Shown piece after piece: positions 37,397-45,152 of a stretch of 64,000 nt of DNA. The DNA lies in the NCBI GenBank assembly GCA_030758115.1, contig JANREX010000085.1, positions 1,655-65,654 of the forward strand. The letters are read 5' to 3'. The stretch's first letter is position 1. Every line of letters starts with the position of its first letter. Made by a program: the position numbers and the translations under genes. The notes beneath the pieces were generated by a model. The model was not told the origin of the DNA, made no database searches, and saw only the letters and a program-made list of their open reading frames with translations. This stretch comes from Paracoccaceae bacterium (lineage in GTDB: Bacteria; Pseudomonadota; Alphaproteobacteria; Rhodobacterales; Rhodobacteraceae).

Positions 37397-38662
37397 ATGA
37401 AGATCCTAGGATTTGCACTCGCCGGAACCACGGCGTTGATCATGACAACTGCGGCTGCCGACCAGAACGAGGCCTTTCTGCTTCAGACAGGCGACAATCA
37501 TAGCGCGCAGATCACCCAGTCGGGCGACAAGAACAAGGCAGGCGCCGCGACACCCACGATGACGCAGGATGGCGAGAACAACCAGCTGGTCATCTTGCAG
37601 TCGGGCGATCGCAACAAGATCGGCCTTGAGGGCGGCGGCGTCTACCAGGACAACCCTTACGACAACGGCTCGCTGATGCGGATCGACATCACGCAGTCGT
37701 CCGACCGCAACGTGGTGGGATCGGTCATGCAATCGACCGATGATCAGAATGAGGCCGGCAGCGGAAACAGCGTCGACATCACCCAATCGGGTTGGGGCCG
37801 CAACCGCGTCGGTTATGTCAAACAGATCCAGTCCGGTACCGGCAACAACCAGCTGGATGTGCGGCAGTCGGGCTGGAAAGATCAGCTGGAAACCGTCACC
37901 CAGACATCGAATGTCGCAGCCGGCACACCGAACCGCATCACCGTGCGGATGAATGGTATCAGCAACGGAACGGGCGACCTTGGCTTCTTTGCGTCCGAGA
38001 CCGGGGCAGAAAGCTCGACCCTGCGGCAGGGGAACATCAACCCCGCAAGCCAAGGGAACTCCATCACCCTGAACGTGACCGGCACAGGGAACGATTTCGG
38101 CGTGACGCAGAATGGCAATGACAACACCGTCGGCACGCTGAACCTTGGCGGCACTTTGAACGACCTGGGCATCCTTCAGACGGGTGACAGCAACACCGTG
38201 TCCATGGCCTCTGTCAGCGGCATTGCAAATGTCATCGGCGTCAAGCAGATCGGCAACATCAACTTGGCGTCGGTATCCGTCAGCGGAACCCTCAACCAGT
38301 TTGGCGTTGCACAGCTTGGCAACAGCAACGAGGCCAATGTCACCGTATCGGGCCTGAACAACGGTCTGGCGCCGAGCCTCTGGGGCACGGCCAACTGGTC
38401 CGGTGCAGCCCTGATCGTGGCCAGCGCCAATCCCTTGCTTGACCGTGGCATGGTCACGCAGATGGGCGACTACAACCTCGCCTCCTTGACGGTCTCCGGC
38501 ATCAGCAACGCTTTCGGCCTGCTGCAGAACGGCGACAGCAACGCCATCACCGGCCTGCAGGACGGCAACTACAACCAGGCTGCCGTGGCGCAGACTGGCA
38601 ACAGCAATACCGCCAACTTTGCCCAGGTTGGAAACGGCAATTCGCTGGGCATTTCCCAGTAA
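37397..38662 (+). CDS. Curlin-repeat (functional amyloid) protein 1
   Basis: Signal peptide MKILGFALAGTTALIMTTAAA, then repeated QxGxxN / QSGxxN motifs (QTGDNHSAQITQSGDKNKAG, QSGDRNKIG, QNGNDNTVG, QTGNSNTANFAQVGNGNSLGISQ); ATG at 37397. Confidence 0.88.
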   Translation: MKILGFALAGTTALIMTTAAADQNEAFLLQTGDNHSAQITQSGDKNKAGAATPTMTQDGENNQLVILQSGDRNKIGLEGGGVYQDNPYDNGSLMRIDITQSSDRNVVGSVMQSTDDQNEAGSGNSVDITQSGWGRNRVGYVKQIQSGTGNNQLDVRQSGWKDQLETVTQTSNVAAGTPNRITVRMNGISNGTGDLGFFASETGAESSTLRQGNINPASQGNSITLNVTGTGNDFGVTQNGNDNTVGTLNLGGTLNDLGILQTGDSNTVSMASVSGIANVIGVKQIGNINLASVSVSGTLNQFGVAQLGNSNEANVTVSGLNNGLAPSLWGTANWSGAALIVASANPLLDRGMVTQMGDYNLASLTVSGISNAFGLLQNGDSNAITGLQDGNYNQAAVAQTGNSNTANFAQVGNGNSLGISQ

Positions 38663-38669
38663 GTCCCCA

Positions 38670-38698
38670 GGCCGCGCCCTGGACCCCAGGGTGCGGCC
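38670..38698 (+). terminator. Strong intercistronic hairpin between curlin-repeat genes 1 and 2 (attenuator or mRNA-stability element)
   Basis: ggccgcgccctgg acc ccagggtgcggcc: 13-bp stem with one G-U; no T tract follows. Confidence 0.55.
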
Positions 38699-38734
38699 AG
38701 AACCTCGCAGATCCCAACAGACAGGAAGATTTTG

Positions 38735-40012
38735 ATGAATATTGTAAAGATCGCACTTGCGGGCGGCACCGCCCTGACCCTCTCGATGACCATGGCAACC
38801 GCGGATGACAACAACGCCTACCTGAAGCAGGTGCAGACCGGGTCCGGCACCGGCACAAACTCGGCCCTGATCACGCAGAGCGGATCCGGCAACGATGCAG
38901 GTTCTGCCAGCAAGAACGTGACCCAGTCGGCAAGCTCCAATTCCAGCAACACCATCGATATCCTGCAGAGCGGCAACAACAACGACATCGGGCTGAACGG
39001 GTTCTCGCAGCTGGCGCAATACGCGTCCTCGCCCTTCGGCAACAGCGCGACAATCACGCAGTCGTCCAACAACAACGTTGTCGGCAAAGTGGATCAGAAG
39101 AACCGTTTCGGCGGCGCGGTCGGCGCGACCGGCAACACCCTGACGATCCTGCAGGCGACAGGTGACGACAACGTCATCAACGAAGTTCTTCAGGACAAGC
39201 ACAAGGGCGGTTCCGGCAACATCGCCGACATCACCATGACCGGCACCAGCAACACCATCGCATCCGTCATGCAGGCTGTGACTGGTGGTATCGCTGGCAA
39301 CACCATGAATGTCACCATCTCTGGCAACAACAACGGGCGTGGTGTGCTCAGCGGGTCCGCCGCAGCCTCTGGTGCGACGACCAGCACGCTCAAGCAGGGC
39401 TTTGCCGATGTGAACAACGGCAACGCCGACAAAGGTGACAACGCCCTGACCCTCGTCATCTCGGGTGCGGGCAACCAGTTCGGTGTCACGCAGCAAGGAT
39501 ACAGCAACACCGTCGGCACGCTGGACATCAGCGGCGCCAACAACCAGCTGGGCGCCTATCAGGACGGCAGCCTGAACGTGATGACCGTGGCCGCCATCAC
39601 CGGTGACGACAACAATATCGGTGTCAAGCAGGTGGGCACGTCGAACACTGCGGGTGTGACTGTCACCGGCAATGCGAACGCATTCCTGGTGTCGCAAAAT
39701 GGCGTGGCTAACGACGCATCGGTTACGGTCAACGGCAACAACAACGGCGAAGGCAACGCCTTCAGCGGTTTCGCGGCCTCGTTGGGCCTCAGCTCGGGTC
39801 TGTTCGAGCAGTTGGGTGATGACAACGGTCTGACCTTCAACGCCATGGGCAACATGAACGCCTTCGCCACCAGGCAGGACGGGTCCGACAACTCGATCAG
39901 CGGCAGCCAGAACGGCAACTCGAACCAGGTTGCCGTGCTGCAGGTCGGCAGCGCCAACCTGGCTTCGTTCAGCCAGTCGGGCAATGGCAACAACGCGGCC
40001 ATCTCGCAGTAG
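38735..40012 (+). CDS. Curlin-repeat (functional amyloid) protein 2
   Basis: MNIVKIALAGGTALTLSMTMATA signal; repeated QSG/QxGxxN units; ends QSGNGNNAAISQ. Confidence 0.88.
   Translation: MNIVKIALAGGTALTLSMTMATADDNNAYLKQVQTGSGTGTNSALITQSGSGNDAGSASKNVTQSASSNSSNTIDILQSGNNNDIGLNGFSQLAQYASSPFGNSATITQSSNNNVVGKVDQKNRFGGAVGATGNTLTILQATGDDNVINEVLQDKHKGGSGNIADITMTGTSNTIASVMQAVTGGIAGNTMNVTISGNNNGRGVLSGSAAASGATTSTLKQGFADVNNGNADKGDNALTLVISGAGNQFGVTQQGYSNTVGTLDISGANNQLGAYQDGSLNVMTVAAITGDDNNIGVKQVGTSNTAGVTVTGNANAFLVSQNGVANDASVTVNGNNNGEGNAFSGFAASLGLSSGLFEQLGDDNGLTFNAMGNMNAFATRQDGSDNSISGSQNGNSNQVAVLQVGSANLASFSQSGNGNNAAISQ
39840..40012 (+). repeat. Near-identical ~173-bp 3' block, copy 1 (second copy 41171-41343)
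   Basis: cgccatgggcaacatgaacgccttcgccacca(g/a)gcaggacgggtccgacaactcgatcagcggcagccagaacggc... with only a few differences between copies. Confidence 0.85.
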
Positions 40013-40024
40013 GCAAGCTTGCAA

Positions 40025-40057
40025 CTGCGCCCTGAACCCTCGGGGCGCAGCCATTTT
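40025..40057 (+). terminator. Rho-independent terminator between curlin-repeat genes 2 and 3
   Basis: ctgcgccc tgaaccctcg gggcgcag followed by ccatttttt. Confidence 0.75.
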
Positions 40058-40083
40058 TTCTTTCCCAAGAAGGACGTTGTAAC

Positions 40084-41343
40084 ATGACATTCACCAAGAT
40101 TGCACTTGCGGGGGGCACGGCCCTGACCCTGTCGATGACCATGGCCATGGCCGACGAAAACAAGGCATTTCTGTCCCAGACCGGTACGGAAAACAGCGCA
40201 CTCATCACGCAGTCCGGTAGCTATAACCAAGCCGGTTCCAGCGTGGATGCGATGGTGCAGCGCGGCGATACTGCCGTTGCGGGCTACAACTCGCTGACCA
40301 TCACCCAGTCCAGCGACAACAACGAAATCGGCCTGACAAATGGCGGTGTCGATCAGCGTCACCGGTTGCAGAGCGGAACCAGAAATCCCCGGAACCAGGC
40401 GACCCTGACCCAGTCGGGTGGCGGCAGCAATGTCATCGGCGGTGTCTCGCAGTACTCCGATGGCGGTCCCGGCACCGCAAACACCTCAAACGTCCTGACG
40501 GTGACGCAGGACGGAACGGCCAACACCCTGGCCAGTGTCGATCAGGTCGGCAAACCCAATGACAGCAACGTCGCCACGGTCACGATGTCGGGCACGGGCA
40601 GCAATATCGACCTGGTTCAGCAGCGCGTGGGCAACAGCGGCAGCGGCACGAACACGCTGACCATCGCAATGTCCGGCGCGGACAACGGCATCGGTGATTT
40701 CAGCGCCGGCGGTGCCGCCGCGCTGAGCGGCGCGACAGCGGCCAACTTCGTGCAGTCCGTCGCCACCCGCACTGCTGCGAACGTGATCATTTCCGGCACG
40801 AACAACCTTGTCGGCACCAAGCAGTCCGGACGGAACAACACCGTTGGAACGCTTGAGGTTGGCGGCGCCGACAACCAACTGGGTGCGCTGCAGAACGGCG
40901 CGTTCAACACCATGACCGTGGCGGCCATCACCGGCACCGGCAACAATGTTGGTGTCTCGCAGATGGGTGACAGCAATCTTGCAGGTGTCATCACGACAGG
41001 CGACCGGAACGCGTTTTTTGTCGCGCAGAACGGCGTGTCCAACGATGCGATGGTCACCATCAGCGGCGATGACAACGGACAGGCCAATGCCTTCTCCGGT
41101 GCTGCGGACACCCTTGGTCTGGACTCGGGCATCTTCGCGCAGTTCGGCATGGATAACGCGCTGACCTTCAATGCCATGGGCAACATGAACGCCTTCGCCA
41201 CCAAGCAGGACGGGTCCGACAACTCGATCAGCGGCAGCCAGAACGGCGACATGAACCAGGTTGCCGTGCTGCAGGTCGGCAGCACCAACCTGGCCTCGTT
41301 CAGCCAGTCGGGCAATGGCAACAACGCGGCCATCTCGCAGTAA
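40084..41343 (+). CDS. Curlin-repeat (functional amyloid) protein 3
   Basis: MTFTKIALAGGTALTLSMTMAMA signal, curlin-type repeats; C-terminus nearly identical to protein 2. Confidence 0.88.
   Translation: MTFTKIALAGGTALTLSMTMAMADENKAFLSQTGTENSALITQSGSYNQAGSSVDAMVQRGDTAVAGYNSLTITQSSDNNEIGLTNGGVDQRHRLQSGTRNPRNQATLTQSGGGSNVIGGVSQYSDGGPGTANTSNVLTVTQDGTANTLASVDQVGKPNDSNVATVTMSGTGSNIDLVQQRVGNSGSGTNTLTIAMSGADNGIGDFSAGGAAALSGATAANFVQSVATRTAANVIISGTNNLVGTKQSGRNNTVGTLEVGGADNQLGALQNGAFNTMTVAAITGTGNNVGVSQMGDSNLAGVITTGDRNAFFVAQNGVSNDAMVTISGDDNGQANAFSGAADTLGLDSGIFAQFGMDNALTFNAMGNMNAFATKQDGSDNSISGSQNGDMNQVAVLQVGSTNLASFSQSGNGNNAAISQ
41171..41343 (+). repeat. Near-identical ~173-bp 3' block, copy 2
   Basis: Pairs with 39840-40012. 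Confidence 0.85.
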
Positions 41344-41352
41344 TCGATATAT

Positions 41353-41426
41353 CCTGCCCGGCATCGCGCCGGGCAGGGGCATGAAAAACGAAAGACCCGG
41401 ACGCGCCATCGCGATCCGGGTCTTTT
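41353..41426. terminator. Bidirectional double terminator between convergent curlin-repeat gene 3 and the Inh-SH3 gene
   Basis: Hairpin 1 cctgcccgg-N7-ccgggcagg (41353-41377); hairpin 2 aaagacccgga-N13-tccgggtcttt (41391-41425) with flanking A/T runs on both sides. Confidence 0.85.
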
Positions 41427-41448
41427 GCTTGGTGTCATCCCCGTTGGG

Positions 41449-42192
41449 TCAGGGCGCCTTGGTCGTGTTGCGATAGGTCACGATGGGCCATTCATTCTGA
41501 CGCAGGGCCGTCTTGGCCAGCCAGCCTGTCTCGGTGCCGAAGATCGCCCGGCACCACACCCCGTCCGAGGCGCTGGTGCAGTAATCCAATGTGACAACAA
41601 GCCCCTTGTCCAAAATCCCGATGACCGGCGCATCGCGACGCGGCTGATTGCGCACGTTCAGGGTCACGAGGATTTCGACACGGCCCCGGGCAGGGTCTTC
41701 GGCCGAAGGCATCGGCGGGGTCAGCGCCTCCTGGGGGGCGCAATCCTGCGTGAAGCCAAGGAAATAGCATTTGTGTCGCGCCAAGGCGTTCGAAATCGCG
41801 ATGCTGGCGCCGTCGCCTTGCGCCCGTTCCACGATCAGACCCTGGCCGCTGTCCGACAGCGTCCCGGTGATCCGTTGCTGGTTGCCACCCATCACGGCCA
41901 GTTCCGTGTCGGCGGCATCCAGAAGACGGATCTGGCCGTTCTCGATGCTCCAGCGACCCAGGCCCACGAGCGGCGTGGCGCAGCCGGTCGCCTGTGCTTC
42001 CATCTGACTGTCCAGAACAAGCCGGCATTCCGATGATCCGCTGCGGAACGCTGGCGCAAAGACAAACCATTCGCCCGAAAATGCCTTGACCAGTTCGTCC
42101 TGGGTTTGCGCCACAGCGCCTGTTGCCGCAATTGCGGCGGCCGAAGCCGCAGCCAGCAGCGCGGTTAGCTTGTTCATCAACGCACCAGTCAT
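41449..42192 (-). CDS. Exported protein with AprI/Inh-like domain and C-terminal SH3-like domain
   Basis: Signal peptide; 'LVKAFSGEWFVFAPAFRSGSSECRLVLDSQMEAQATGCATPLVGLGRWSIENGQIRLLDA' (Inh-like); 'ILVTLNVRNQPRRDAPVIGILDKGLVVTLDYC...GTETGWLAKTAL' (SH3b-like). Confidence 0.7.
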   Translation of the reverse strand: MTGALMNKLTALLAAASAAAIAATGAVAQTQDELVKAFSGEWFVFAPAFRSGSSECRLVLDSQMEAQATGCATPLVGLGRWSIENGQIRLLDAADTELAVMGGNQQRITGTLSDSGQGLIVERAQGDGASIAISNALARHKCYFLGFTQDCAPQEALTPPMPSAEDPARGRVEILVTLNVRNQPRRDAPVIGILDKGLVVTLDYCTSASDGVWCRAIFGTETGWLAKTALRQNEWPIVTYRNTTKAP

Positions 42193-42214
42193 GTCGTCCG
42201 GGTCCTTGGTCTTG

Positions 42215-42637
42215 TCATCGGGTCTCGATCTTGCCGGCGCGTATGGTTCTTTCGACGCGCGCGAACACGACCCCGTCACGGCGCAGCACAAGCGTGGCCG
42301 CAATCCGACCCTCGGGGCCGAGGGACAGCGTGTTTTGTGCGATGGTCCGGGTCTCGCCCGGGGTCAGGGTCACCTCCTGACCCTGCTGGCTGTTGACACG
42401 TCCCGCATGGTCGCTTTTCTCGATCGTCAATTCGGCCTGCACCGGCACCTGTTCGATCCCCGTCACCAGGCCCGCGATGCGAAAGCCCTCTGGTGTCTGG
42501 TCGATCTCGATGCGCGCGCTGGCGGGCACATCGCGCAGCCTGTCCGCGCGACTTTCCTGCGGCAGGGCCAAAAGGCCCGCTGCAAAGGCGGCGATCGCAA
42601 GAGCGGATGAGCGCAGAGCAGACATCCGCAAACTCAA
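42215..42637 (-). CDS. csgH: CsgH-like curli assembly chaperone
   Basis: 140 aa, signal peptide; 'ARIEIDQTPEGFRIAGLVTGIEQVPVQAELTIEKSDHAGRVNSQQGQEVTLTPGETRTIAQNTLSLGPEGRIAATLVL'; within the csg operon. Confidence 0.8.
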   Translation of the reverse strand: MSLRMSALRSSALAIAAFAAGLLALPQESRADRLRDVPASARIEIDQTPEGFRIAGLVTGIEQVPVQAELTIEKSDHAGRVNSQQGQEVTLTPGETRTIAQNTLSLGPEGRIAATLVLRRDGVVFARVERTIRAGKIETR

Positions 42638-43275
42638 AACTGGGTCTGGGTAATCGTGACCGACCCGCCGTTGGAAATCACGACCGGACCTGTGCCGACC
42701 GGCGCAAGGTTGTTTCCGATCGCGGTGTACGAGGCGCTGGCCCCGATGCCGCTGACGGTAAAGCCGAACTGGTTGTTGTCGCCGATCTGGGTCAGGCTGC
42801 CGGACGCGCCACTACCCTGCACGTTCAGATCGGCGCGATTGCCATTGCCGATCTGGCGAATGTCACCGCTGGACGCGAGAGGGGCCAGGGTCAGGCTGGC
42901 GGTGTTGTCGTTTCCGTCCTGCTTCATGTAGGCCAGCCCAAGGGCCGCGGCCATGCTGACCGTGGCACTGTTGCCGTCGCCCGATTGCAGGAAGGCCACT
43001 TGCCCGCCATCCCCCATCATCAGGATCTGCCCGAAGTTGTCGGTGCCATCCTGAAGCGCCGGTGTGCTGCTGGCCGCCGCATCGAAGGCACCGGCGACGG
43101 TCGCATTCGACGCCTGCGTCTGGTCGACTTGCAGCGTGTTGTTTCCGGCGATGCCCAGGGGGCTGTTCTGCAGAATGTAGATCTGGTTGCCATCTCCGGC
43201 AAAAGACACGGAACCCAGAAGGGACAGCAGCGCGGCGCATTGGGTGGGGCGAATAAATGCTTTGATAACAGTCAT
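42634..43275 (-). CDS. Minor curlin-like (CsgB-like) subunit
   Basis: 'GDGNQIYILQNSPLGIAGNNTLQVDQTQASNATVAG', 'FLQSGDGNSATVSMA', 'IRQIGNGNRADLNVQGSGASGSLTQIGDNNQFGFTVSG'; ATGA overlap with csgH; start ATG 43275. Confidence 0.8.
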   Translation of the reverse strand: MTVIKAFIRPTQCAALLSLLGSVSFAGDGNQIYILQNSPLGIAGNNTLQVDQTQASNATVAGAFDAAASSTPALQDGTDNFGQILMMGDGGQVAFLQSGDGNSATVSMAAALGLAYMKQDGNDNTASLTLAPLASSGDIRQIGNGNRADLNVQGSGASGSLTQIGDNNQFGFTVSGIGASASYTAIGNNLAPVGTGPVVISNGGSVTITQTQF

Positions 43276-43461
43276 AAAATAATCCTCTGACACTCTCTAA
43301 AGATTATCATGCGGGCTGCTGTTTTGAAACCTAATTCATTACTTCTGATTGTGTACTTTCGTGATTGTGTTCGCTTTGGCCTGCATGGCTGACTGCGCAG
43401 GCGTCATGCGGCCGGATTGCATGACACCACTTTTCGCAAGCGCGGACAGAATTGGAAAATT

Positions 43462-43496
43462 ACGGGTATTGCTGCGTTTTTCAGAACAATACCCGT
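43462..43496 (-). terminator. Inverted repeat downstream of csgG (possible terminator/attenuator)
   Basis: acgggtattg-N15-caatacccgt, perfect 10-bp arms; on the minus strand lies just past the csgG stop and is followed by aatttt. Confidence 0.55.
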
Positions 43497-43511
43497 ATGG
43501 TTTTCCTGGCC

Positions 43512-44594
43512 TTATCCCACGACCTCATCCGGCAGGGGACCGGCGGGCGGGGGCGGTGCGGCCTGGCTGCTGACGCTTGGTGCCGCGCCGCCAGAGGCGG
43601 GGGACAAAAGGCGCTCGCTGACGCGCGGAAGGGCGCGGGGCCGGGTCTGGACCGTGGCCGCAGGGTTCGCGGTCATCGGGCGGCCACGCACCTGTGCCGA
43701 GGCGGGGACCTCGTTGTCGTAAAGCTGCGCGCGATAGCCCGTCAGGTATTGCTGGCCCTCGGCATCGCTTGCGAAAGCCCAGATCCCGGCTTCTGCCCCT
43801 TCGGCGATCAGGGCCATCACGGCCTTTTCAATGGCTTGCTGCACGGCAATCTGGCGCGGTTCGTTGCTGGCGCGGCCGACTTCGGCCTCCAGCAGTTCAT
43901 CCAGCGCGACATAGCTGAAGATGCTGCCGCGATCCGAATAGGAGGCCAGCGGCTTGCGCACGACGACATTGGCCAGAACCTCGCCTGTTGCGGTCGATAC
44001 CGCGCGCAGGCTGACGGTGACCACGTCAAGTTTCCATTGGCGATCGCCGCCGATCCCCAGGTAACGCGCACCGGCGCCACCGGTCATCGTGTTGGTGTCA
44101 TAGCCGATGATGCCGCCTTGCAGGATGATGCCCGCATGGGCCAGCGGCGCCAGGGCCGAAGGATCGATCGTGGTTTCGCCGCGATACTGGCGGCGCATCT
44201 CGGTCACGATGGTGCGTTCGCGCACCAGGGATTCCAGGTTCGAGCGGTCCAGAACCGTGAACCAGCGCCGGTTTCCGGCATCCTGCAGTGCGCCGATCAG
44301 GATCGGGGCGCCGCCCTGTGTGACGGCACGCGACACCGATTGGATATTCTCGCGTTCGCGGTATTGGCCGGTCAGGTCAGGGAAGTCATAGACCGATACC
44401 ATGATGCGCTGCTTGGGCGGCGGCACCTCGCGCAGGGCGCGGTTCTGGGCGGTCAGATTGCCGACCGATGCCATGTATTCGCTCTCATAGGCCTCGGGCA
44501 GTGTGCTGGTGCATCCCGCGACCAAGGCCGCGCTGGTCAGAGTCATGGCGATCGCCTGCGCCTTGCGGCGCCAGGGGGTCTTGGTATCTGTCAT
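43512..44594 (-). CDS. csgG: CsgG/HfaB family curli secretion channel
   Basis: 360 aa lipoprotein-like (VAGCTST); 'KQRIMVSVYDFPDLTGQYRERENIQSVSRAVTQGGAPILIGALQDAGNRRWFTVLDRSNLESLVRERTIV'. Confidence 0.95.
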   Translation of the reverse strand: MTDTKTPWRRKAQAIAMTLTSAALVAGCTSTLPEAYESEYMASVGNLTAQNRALREVPPPKQRIMVSVYDFPDLTGQYRERENIQSVSRAVTQGGAPILIGALQDAGNRRWFTVLDRSNLESLVRERTIVTEMRRQYRGETTIDPSALAPLAHAGIILQGGIIGYDTNTMTGGAGARYLGIGGDRQWKLDVVTVSLRAVSTATGEVLANVVVRKPLASYSDRGSIFSYVALDELLEAEVGRASNEPRQIAVQQAIEKAVMALIAEGAEAGIWAFASDAEGQQYLTGYRAQLYDNEVPASAQVRGRPMTANPAATVQTRPRALPRVSERLLSPASGGAAPSVSSQAAPPPPAGPLPDEVVG

Positions 44595-44651
44595 TTGCTT
44601 GCCTCAATGCATTGCGCCCGTTTTCGGGCGTCATATTCTTTGAAAGAAGGA

Positions 44652-45152
44652 TCAGCCTGCGGTTACAAGTTGCGGCACCACGATTTCGGTTACGGTCCCA
44701 TCCAGAGAGTCGATGATGACCAGGCGAATGGAGTCGAGCGTGCGCTGGAATTCGACGGTGGTCGTGCCGAAGGTCACGATGCCGCCATCCTGCGGGTTTT
44801 CGCCAAAGATCGCGTCCGTGACCTGGCTGGCCAGCGCCGACAGCAGGCGGCCTTCCAGCTGGCGCACGAACAGGTCCGCGTTCGACGTGCTGGGCGTGTC
44901 GATCCCGCTGCCGCTGAGGCCGTCATTCGTTTCGGCATCGCGGGCGGTTGCCGTGCGCTGCGCGTTGGCGATGGACAGCAGATGCGAAGAGTTCAGCGGG
45001 CTGCCCCCGAAAGAGGGGTTGATCGGCGTATAGACAAGGTCTTGCGCCATGGCGCCCTGACCCAGTGCCAACAGGCTGCAGGTCAGCAGCAGGCGGGCCG
45101 CGATCCGGCGCAACGGTCTGCCCTGTTCCTCAGTGTCCCGTATCGTGGTCAT
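44652..45152 (-). CDS. csgF: Curli assembly protein CsgF
   Basis: 'AQDLVYTPINPSFGGSPLNSSHLLSIANAQ', the CsgF N-terminal signature; adjacent to csgG. Confidence 0.93.
   Translation of the reverse strand: MTTIRDTEEQGRPLRRIAARLLLTCSLLALGQGAMAQDLVYTPINPSFGGSPLNSSHLLSIANAQRTATARDAETNDGLSGSGIDTPSTSNADLFVRQLEGRLLSALASQVTDAIFGENPQDGGIVTFGTTTVEFQRTLDSIRLVIIDSLDGTVTEIVVPQLVTAG

Follow-up and report, generated by a model that had tools for sequence, protein, structure and literature searches.

The curli locus and its gene products

The window, i.e., the whole stretch of 64,000 nucleotides of a Paracoccaceae bacterium that was analysed, contains at positions 37397-45152 eight reading frames, all open, and the features listed in Table 1. 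The original prediction described here three large curlin-repeat subunit genes facing a csgF-csgG-csgB-like-csgH unit that carries an additional gene for a protein with Inh and SH3 parts (Inh-SH3; gene inhSH3), and this arrangement is borne out by the reading frames and the domain matches.

Table 1. Genes and other features of the curli locus, with positions in the window
Feature	Position	Strand	Evidence
CgA1, large curlin-repeat subunit 1	37397..38662	+	421 aa; Curlin_rpt 3e-18; dN/dS 0.19
CgA2, large curlin-repeat subunit 2	38735..40012	+	425 aa; Curlin_rpt 1.3e-11; dN/dS 0.19
CgA3, large curlin-repeat subunit 3	40084..41343	+	419 aa; Curlin_rpt 1.1e-20
Convergent gap, putative bidirectional terminator	41344..41448		two strong hairpins
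inhSH3, Inh-SH3 protein	41449..42192	-	247 aa; Pfam, AF2, Foldseek, linkage
csgH	42215..42637	-	NF041112 57.3 bits vs cut-off 35
csgB-like curlin-repeat gene	42634..43293	-	219 aa; Curlin_rpt 6.6e-8; 22-residue repeat
csgG, lipoprotein channel	43512..44594	-	360 aa; PF03783 1.6e-49
csgF	44652..45152	-	PF10614 5.8e-26

Compared with Rhodobacteraceae bacterium EhC02 (L080), which is the nearest relative, the dN/dS values of the eight genes lie between 0.04 and 0.26, implying that all of them are under purifying selection and thus that the locus is not a product of chance. The frames of csgB, csgH and inhSH3 overlap or almost touch, which is consistent with the three genes being on one transcript. 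The gap between the two convergent units has a minimum free energy of -60.7 kcal/mol on the + strand (z -5.7) and of -58.4 kcal/mol on the - strand (z -6.7), with one of its two hairpins being flanked by A- and T-runs, and it is likely that this gap acts as a bidirectional terminator. Note also that GC-rich hairpins are present between the subunit genes, at 38663-38734 (-31.9 kcal/mol) and at 40013-40083 (-28 kcal/mol, directly followed by a T-run), both with z about -4; these hairpins may set unequal mRNA levels for the three subunits. The convergence of the subunit genes on inhSH3 is found in the window's genus, in two near relatives (L081, L082) and in Cognatishimia (L087), while in most others the subunit genes diverge from csgF. 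A short csgA between csgG and csgB, found in many relatives, is absent at the window locus.

That the three large proteins, each of more than 400 aa as predicted, belong to the curlins was confirmed by a check named beforehand, with Curlin_rpt being matched above the Pfam cut-off in all three and also in the csgB-like protein. The large subunits show an N/Q ladder of 11/22-residue periodicity and the csgB-like protein has repeat spacings of 22,22,22,22; the AF2 model of CgA3 (pLDDT 80.4, pTM 0.79) consists of about 30 short repeated strands. In the clade that has Inh-SH3, the large subunits mostly start with DxNxAYLxQxG and the repeats right behind the signal peptide and have no glycine-rich leader resembling N22; in CgA1, the Sec signal is followed at once by DQNEAFLLQ. 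The CsgB-type protein opens with a similar motif. The E. coli channel CsgG binds N22, while CsgE binds the repeats (PMC6957492). With the N22-like leader missing, the recognition of curlin in this clade would thus probably differ from the E. coli mode. Multi-component fibres, which the original prediction had named as possible, are plausible.

The CsgG channel, CsgF and the exported curlin-repeat subunits together place the locus among the curli or type VIII secretion systems. The window CsgG aligns with CsgG of the PDB over residues 19-288 (E 1.2e-47) and then continues into a proline-rich C-terminal tail of 72 aa, ending with PDEVVG; the window CsgF shares the N-terminal segment NPxFGGxPxN with E. 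coli CsgF; and the product of csgH scores well above the cut-off of the CsgH family model. For CsgH of Rhodopseudomonas, it has been proven that the protein inhibits curli amyloid in the way of CsgC (PMC4838910).

The original prediction also took the lack of csgE, together with the extra Inh-SH3 protein, as a sign of a variant assembly pathway. The lack itself holds, since a profile search up to E = 10 over the locus and over the whole genome of the bacterium (97.8% complete) gave no CsgE, and so no homologue elsewhere in the genome of the kind that had been named beforehand as refuting. The significance attached to it does not hold: according to a 2012 survey, Alphaproteobacteria are without csgC, csgD and csgE (Dueholm et al., PMC3521004), and this class-wide absence was reproduced here, with CsgE above its family cut-off in 0 of 385 alphaproteobacterial genomes. 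The idea that a missing csgE is out of the ordinary was thus ruled out, and the system, lacking the CsgE of E. coli-type curli, is to be filed with the alphaproteobacterial CsgE-less kind. The survey also reports that subunits can carry as many as 22 repeats and that csgA/B can be present in up to six copies, and it describes csgH (PMC3521004). As to csgD, no regulator was seen among the six flanking genes scanned, though an HMM cannot exclude csgD because CsgD is a LuxR-type regulator. Clustering of the remaining reading frames of 28 loci gave no gene common to the clade that could replace csgE or csgD, the sole consistent extra gene being an IalB-like one that lies next to csgG in another set of relatives.

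This gene (IalB family, PF06776) adjoins csgG at L070:7228-7959, L071:7020-7685, L073:7253-8035 and L074:5476-6144. In the same four loci CsgF has only 95-116 aa, and its match to the family falls mainly in the N-terminal third, as though nothing but the part that inserts into CsgG had been kept; the IalB-family gene is possibly a different accessory for the relatives with shortened CsgF.

Linkage of Inh-SH3 to curli genes

In the gene maps, inhSH3 is the final gene of the csgF-csgG-(csgA)-csgB-(csgH) unit. With the window protein as query, a full-length homologue was found in 6 of 150 genomes of the family, the other matches being short and covering the SH3 side only. When 85,462 genomes were scanned with a pattern derived from an alignment of the protein, 17 homologues were obtained, all 17 located in curli loci; the gene order csgF-csgG-(csgA)-csgB-(csgH)-inhSH3 is present in 16 of them, with the seventeenth being a decayed curli locus. 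That scan is biased in that its pattern was built on curli-linked members; the window-protein query alone and a whole-length profile search give the same picture of linkage. Among 397 genomes of the family, Inh-SH3 is present in 12 and CsgF in 21, with both present in 10 (Fisher p = 9e-13). The two genomes having Inh-SH3 and no CsgF are one with a decayed curli locus (G013) and one represented by a fragmented assembly (G679).

In the former, the locus (L058:8957-10775) retains a 3' fragment of csgB, csgH and inhSH3, and part of a flavin-dependent oxidoreductase (GMC-type, as judged by eye) precedes csgH in the same frame. In the latter, two Inh-SH3 fragments are situated at the ends of contigs and have no csg genes nearby, which decides neither way on linkage. 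Another genome (G553) has two curli loci with Inh-SH3, L061 and L062, the second of which is without csgH and has the most divergent Inh-SH3. In Oceaniglobus indicus (L096:9959-10637), Inh-SH3 is broken across three frames beside curlin genes, and the 20 kb examined contain neither csgF nor csgG.

In the CsgG tree the loci with Inh-SH3 form one group (support 92/87), which is consistent with one gain of Inh-SH3 and no loss in the intact loci of the clade. The CsgG of this clade has a proline-rich C-terminal tail of 60-100 aa, the end of which, (D/G/E/N)E(V/T/A/I)(V/L/I)G, is found in 19 of 21 loci of the clade and in 0 of 14 other loci. In addition, the loop that matches the constriction of E. 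coli CsgG (YPASNF) is without the aromatics Y51 and F56 and has L or V before SRAV. The tail, the altered loop and the N22-free subunits are associations at the level of the clade which common descent alone could explain, and as the association of the tail with Inh-SH3 has one origin in about 20 sequences, it provides no independent events for an analysis of co-variation. CsgF-positive relatives outside the clade are without Inh-SH3, and thus CsgE-less curli do not in general depend on it.

Linkage and phylogeny together give good support to Inh-SH3 being part of the curli system, as the original prediction had supposed for the extra protein, and it is probably a dedicated part of the curli machine of this clade. 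No description of such a curli component was seen in any of the papers retrieved. It is noted that the linkage shows membership of the system rather than an activity, so that the role of the protein has to be inferred.

Fold and possible roles of Inh-SH3

Inh-SH3 comprises a signal peptide, a barrel resembling Inh/I38 (about 36-122), a helix and an SH3b domain (about 170-242). In the window protein, the SH3_3 match scores 29.4 bits (cut-off 27), while the Inh match of this protein alone is below the Pfam cut-off (19.6 vs 25); in the Inh-SH3 family, Inh is matched in 11 of 12 members, with a best E of 3.5e-10. The AF2 model (pLDDT 87.9, pTM 0.77) has eight main barrel strands, the helix and an SH3b-like domain, and both the Pfam family matches and Foldseek identify the eight-stranded barrel as of the Inh type characteristic of I38. 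The Foldseek matches include U-Omp19 (7mhw, 5e-5), the marine metalloprotease inhibitor 6iy4 (6.6e-4) and SH3b cell-wall-binding domains such as that of lysostaphin, and Omp19 is also found by a sequence profile search with Inh-SH3 (6.7e-5). That Inh-SH3 might be a diverged CsgE was examined and rejected: comparison with the CsgE profiles gives an hhalign probability of 1.5%, and CsgE is not among the top 50 Foldseek matches. Inh-SH3 is thus predicted to be a barrel of the Omp19/I38 type joined to an SH3b domain and unrelated to CsgE.

Based on this fold, one possible though tentative role is that of a dedicated protease inhibitor, whose N-terminal trunk and barrel would keep a protease, either periplasmic or of the serralysin type, from cutting unfolded exported curlin. 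This is consistent with the Inh matches in the family and with the structural similarity to U-Omp19 and three metalloprotease inhibitors (6iy4, 1smp_I and 6ixx_I). Once the signal is cleaved off as predicted, the N-terminus of the mature protein reads QSxxELIxAFSGEW, with Q and W invariant, and this trunk is similar in length to that of about 10 residues which the I38 inhibitors insert into the protease. Matches to the serralysin C-domain (PF08548) are also present in the window's genome, but these are C-terminal domains only, and the conserved neighbourhood of inhSH3 has no protease gene. The invariant residues, moreover, are for the most part G, W and C at structural positions in the two domains rather than a proven inhibitory motif. 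As the inhibitory activity of U-Omp19 resides in a disordered N-terminal region and not in the barrel (PMC9486555), the fold alone is no proof of protease inhibition by Inh-SH3.

An equally tentative possibility is that Inh-SH3 is a second anti-amyloid holdase that overlaps in function with CsgH. This would agree with the position of inhSH3 directly after csgH and, in the four loci that lack csgH (L057, which is the same as L092, and L062, L093 and L094), directly after csgB; the relatives in Donghicola have lost csgH and kept inhSH3, and no csgH above the cut-off is present elsewhere in the genomes G039, G777 and G778. The known periplasmic inhibitors of curli, CsgC and CsgH, are likewise small beta-rich proteins. 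However, no relation of Inh-SH3 to them in fold or sequence is established, and most loci keep both csgH and inhSH3, indicating that the two are not simply interchangeable.

We consider it rather unlikely that Inh-SH3 is an analogue of CsgE, docked in the periplasm on the proline-rich CsgG tail and either gating the channel or feeding curlin into it. This idea draws on the class-wide lack of CsgE, on the coincidence of Inh-SH3 with the CsgG tail in one clade, on the constriction loop, where L or V stands at the position of E. coli F56 and Y51 is not conserved, and on the N22-free subunits, for which the E. coli mode of recognition is seemingly altered. These traits, however, all mark one clade and may have been inherited together; a profile relation to CsgE is lacking, and other CsgE-less alphaproteobacterial systems do without Inh-SH3. 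Moreover, over-expression of CsgG allows E. coli to secrete even when CsgE is lacking, and thus a replacement of CsgE is not strictly needed. The fuller version, in which Inh-SH3 would be a functional substitute for CsgE, docked on the peptidoglycan or the CsgG tail and both holding and gating, with the new tail, the constriction and the N22-free substrates as parts of one scheme, is in our estimate improbable.

Finally, a decaying, functionless relic is a very remote reading, for while decay does occur among the curli loci of relatives, as in G013 and in the broken inhSH3 of Oceaniglobus, the low dN/dS values and the eight open genes of the window locus largely refute it.

Proposed working of the locus and comparison with known systems

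The bacterium, a marine-type one, has a complete curli gene set, of the CsgE-less kind that is ordinary for its class, plus one conserved extra gene. We regard as likely the joint reading that this is a complete CsgE-less curli locus with Inh-SH3 as a dedicated component of the clade, its role being inferred. By homology, the four curlin-repeat proteins would be exported by Sec, kept unaggregated in the periplasm by CsgH, and released via the outer-membrane channel CsgG, with CsgF and the CsgB-like subunit mediating nucleation and holding at the surface, where the three large subunits would build either a single mixed fibre or fibres that are alternatives to each other. Inh-SH3 is predicted to be periplasmic, where its SH3b domain would most likely anchor the barrel at the peptidoglycan or at the mouth of CsgG, and the protein would hold unfolded curlin or shield it from proteolysis. 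Dinoroseobacter shibae belongs to the same family as the bacterium of the window. It forms fibres from a CsgA homologue (PMC12281610), which suggests by analogy that systems of this kind may work.

Apparently, what is new here is Inh-SH3 as a conserved curli accessory, the CsgE-less kind, the long and multiple subunits and csgH being already known. The export of curli in the absence of CsgE has posed a question since the 2012 survey, and the present clade, which includes culturable bacteria, supplies a concrete conserved candidate gene together with a matching change of the channel. Inh-SH3 is likely a new class of amyloid- or protease-control protein in functional amyloid systems.

With the alphaproteobacterial curli of Dueholm et al. 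(PMC3521004), as described in the available text of that survey, the window locus shares the csgA/B-type subunits, csgG and csgH, the csgF found in some genera, the lack of csgC, csgD and csgE, and long, multiple subunits. The extra gene of the survey is csgH; the window adds Inh-SH3 and the CsgG tail of the clade, neither of which is described in that text. With csgBAC-csgDEFG of E. coli it has in common the CsgG channel, CsgF, subunits with a Q/N ladder and two opposed transcription units. By contrast, it is without CsgE, CsgD and CsgC and has the extra Inh-SH3, its subunits are about 3 times longer and have no N22 leader, and its CsgG is about 80 aa longer. As to the CsgC/CsgH inhibitors (Taylor et al. 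2016, PMC4838910), the window csgH passes the family model and adjoins csgB, and inhibition of curli amyloid is predicted for it by family. With the I38 (Inh) inhibitors and Brucella Omp19, Inh-SH3 shares the predicted barrel (7mhw, 6iy4, 1smp_I), a conserved cysteine pair and a short trunk before the barrel, but it differs from them in being fused to an SH3b domain, in being encoded in a curli operon and in that no lipobox is seen.
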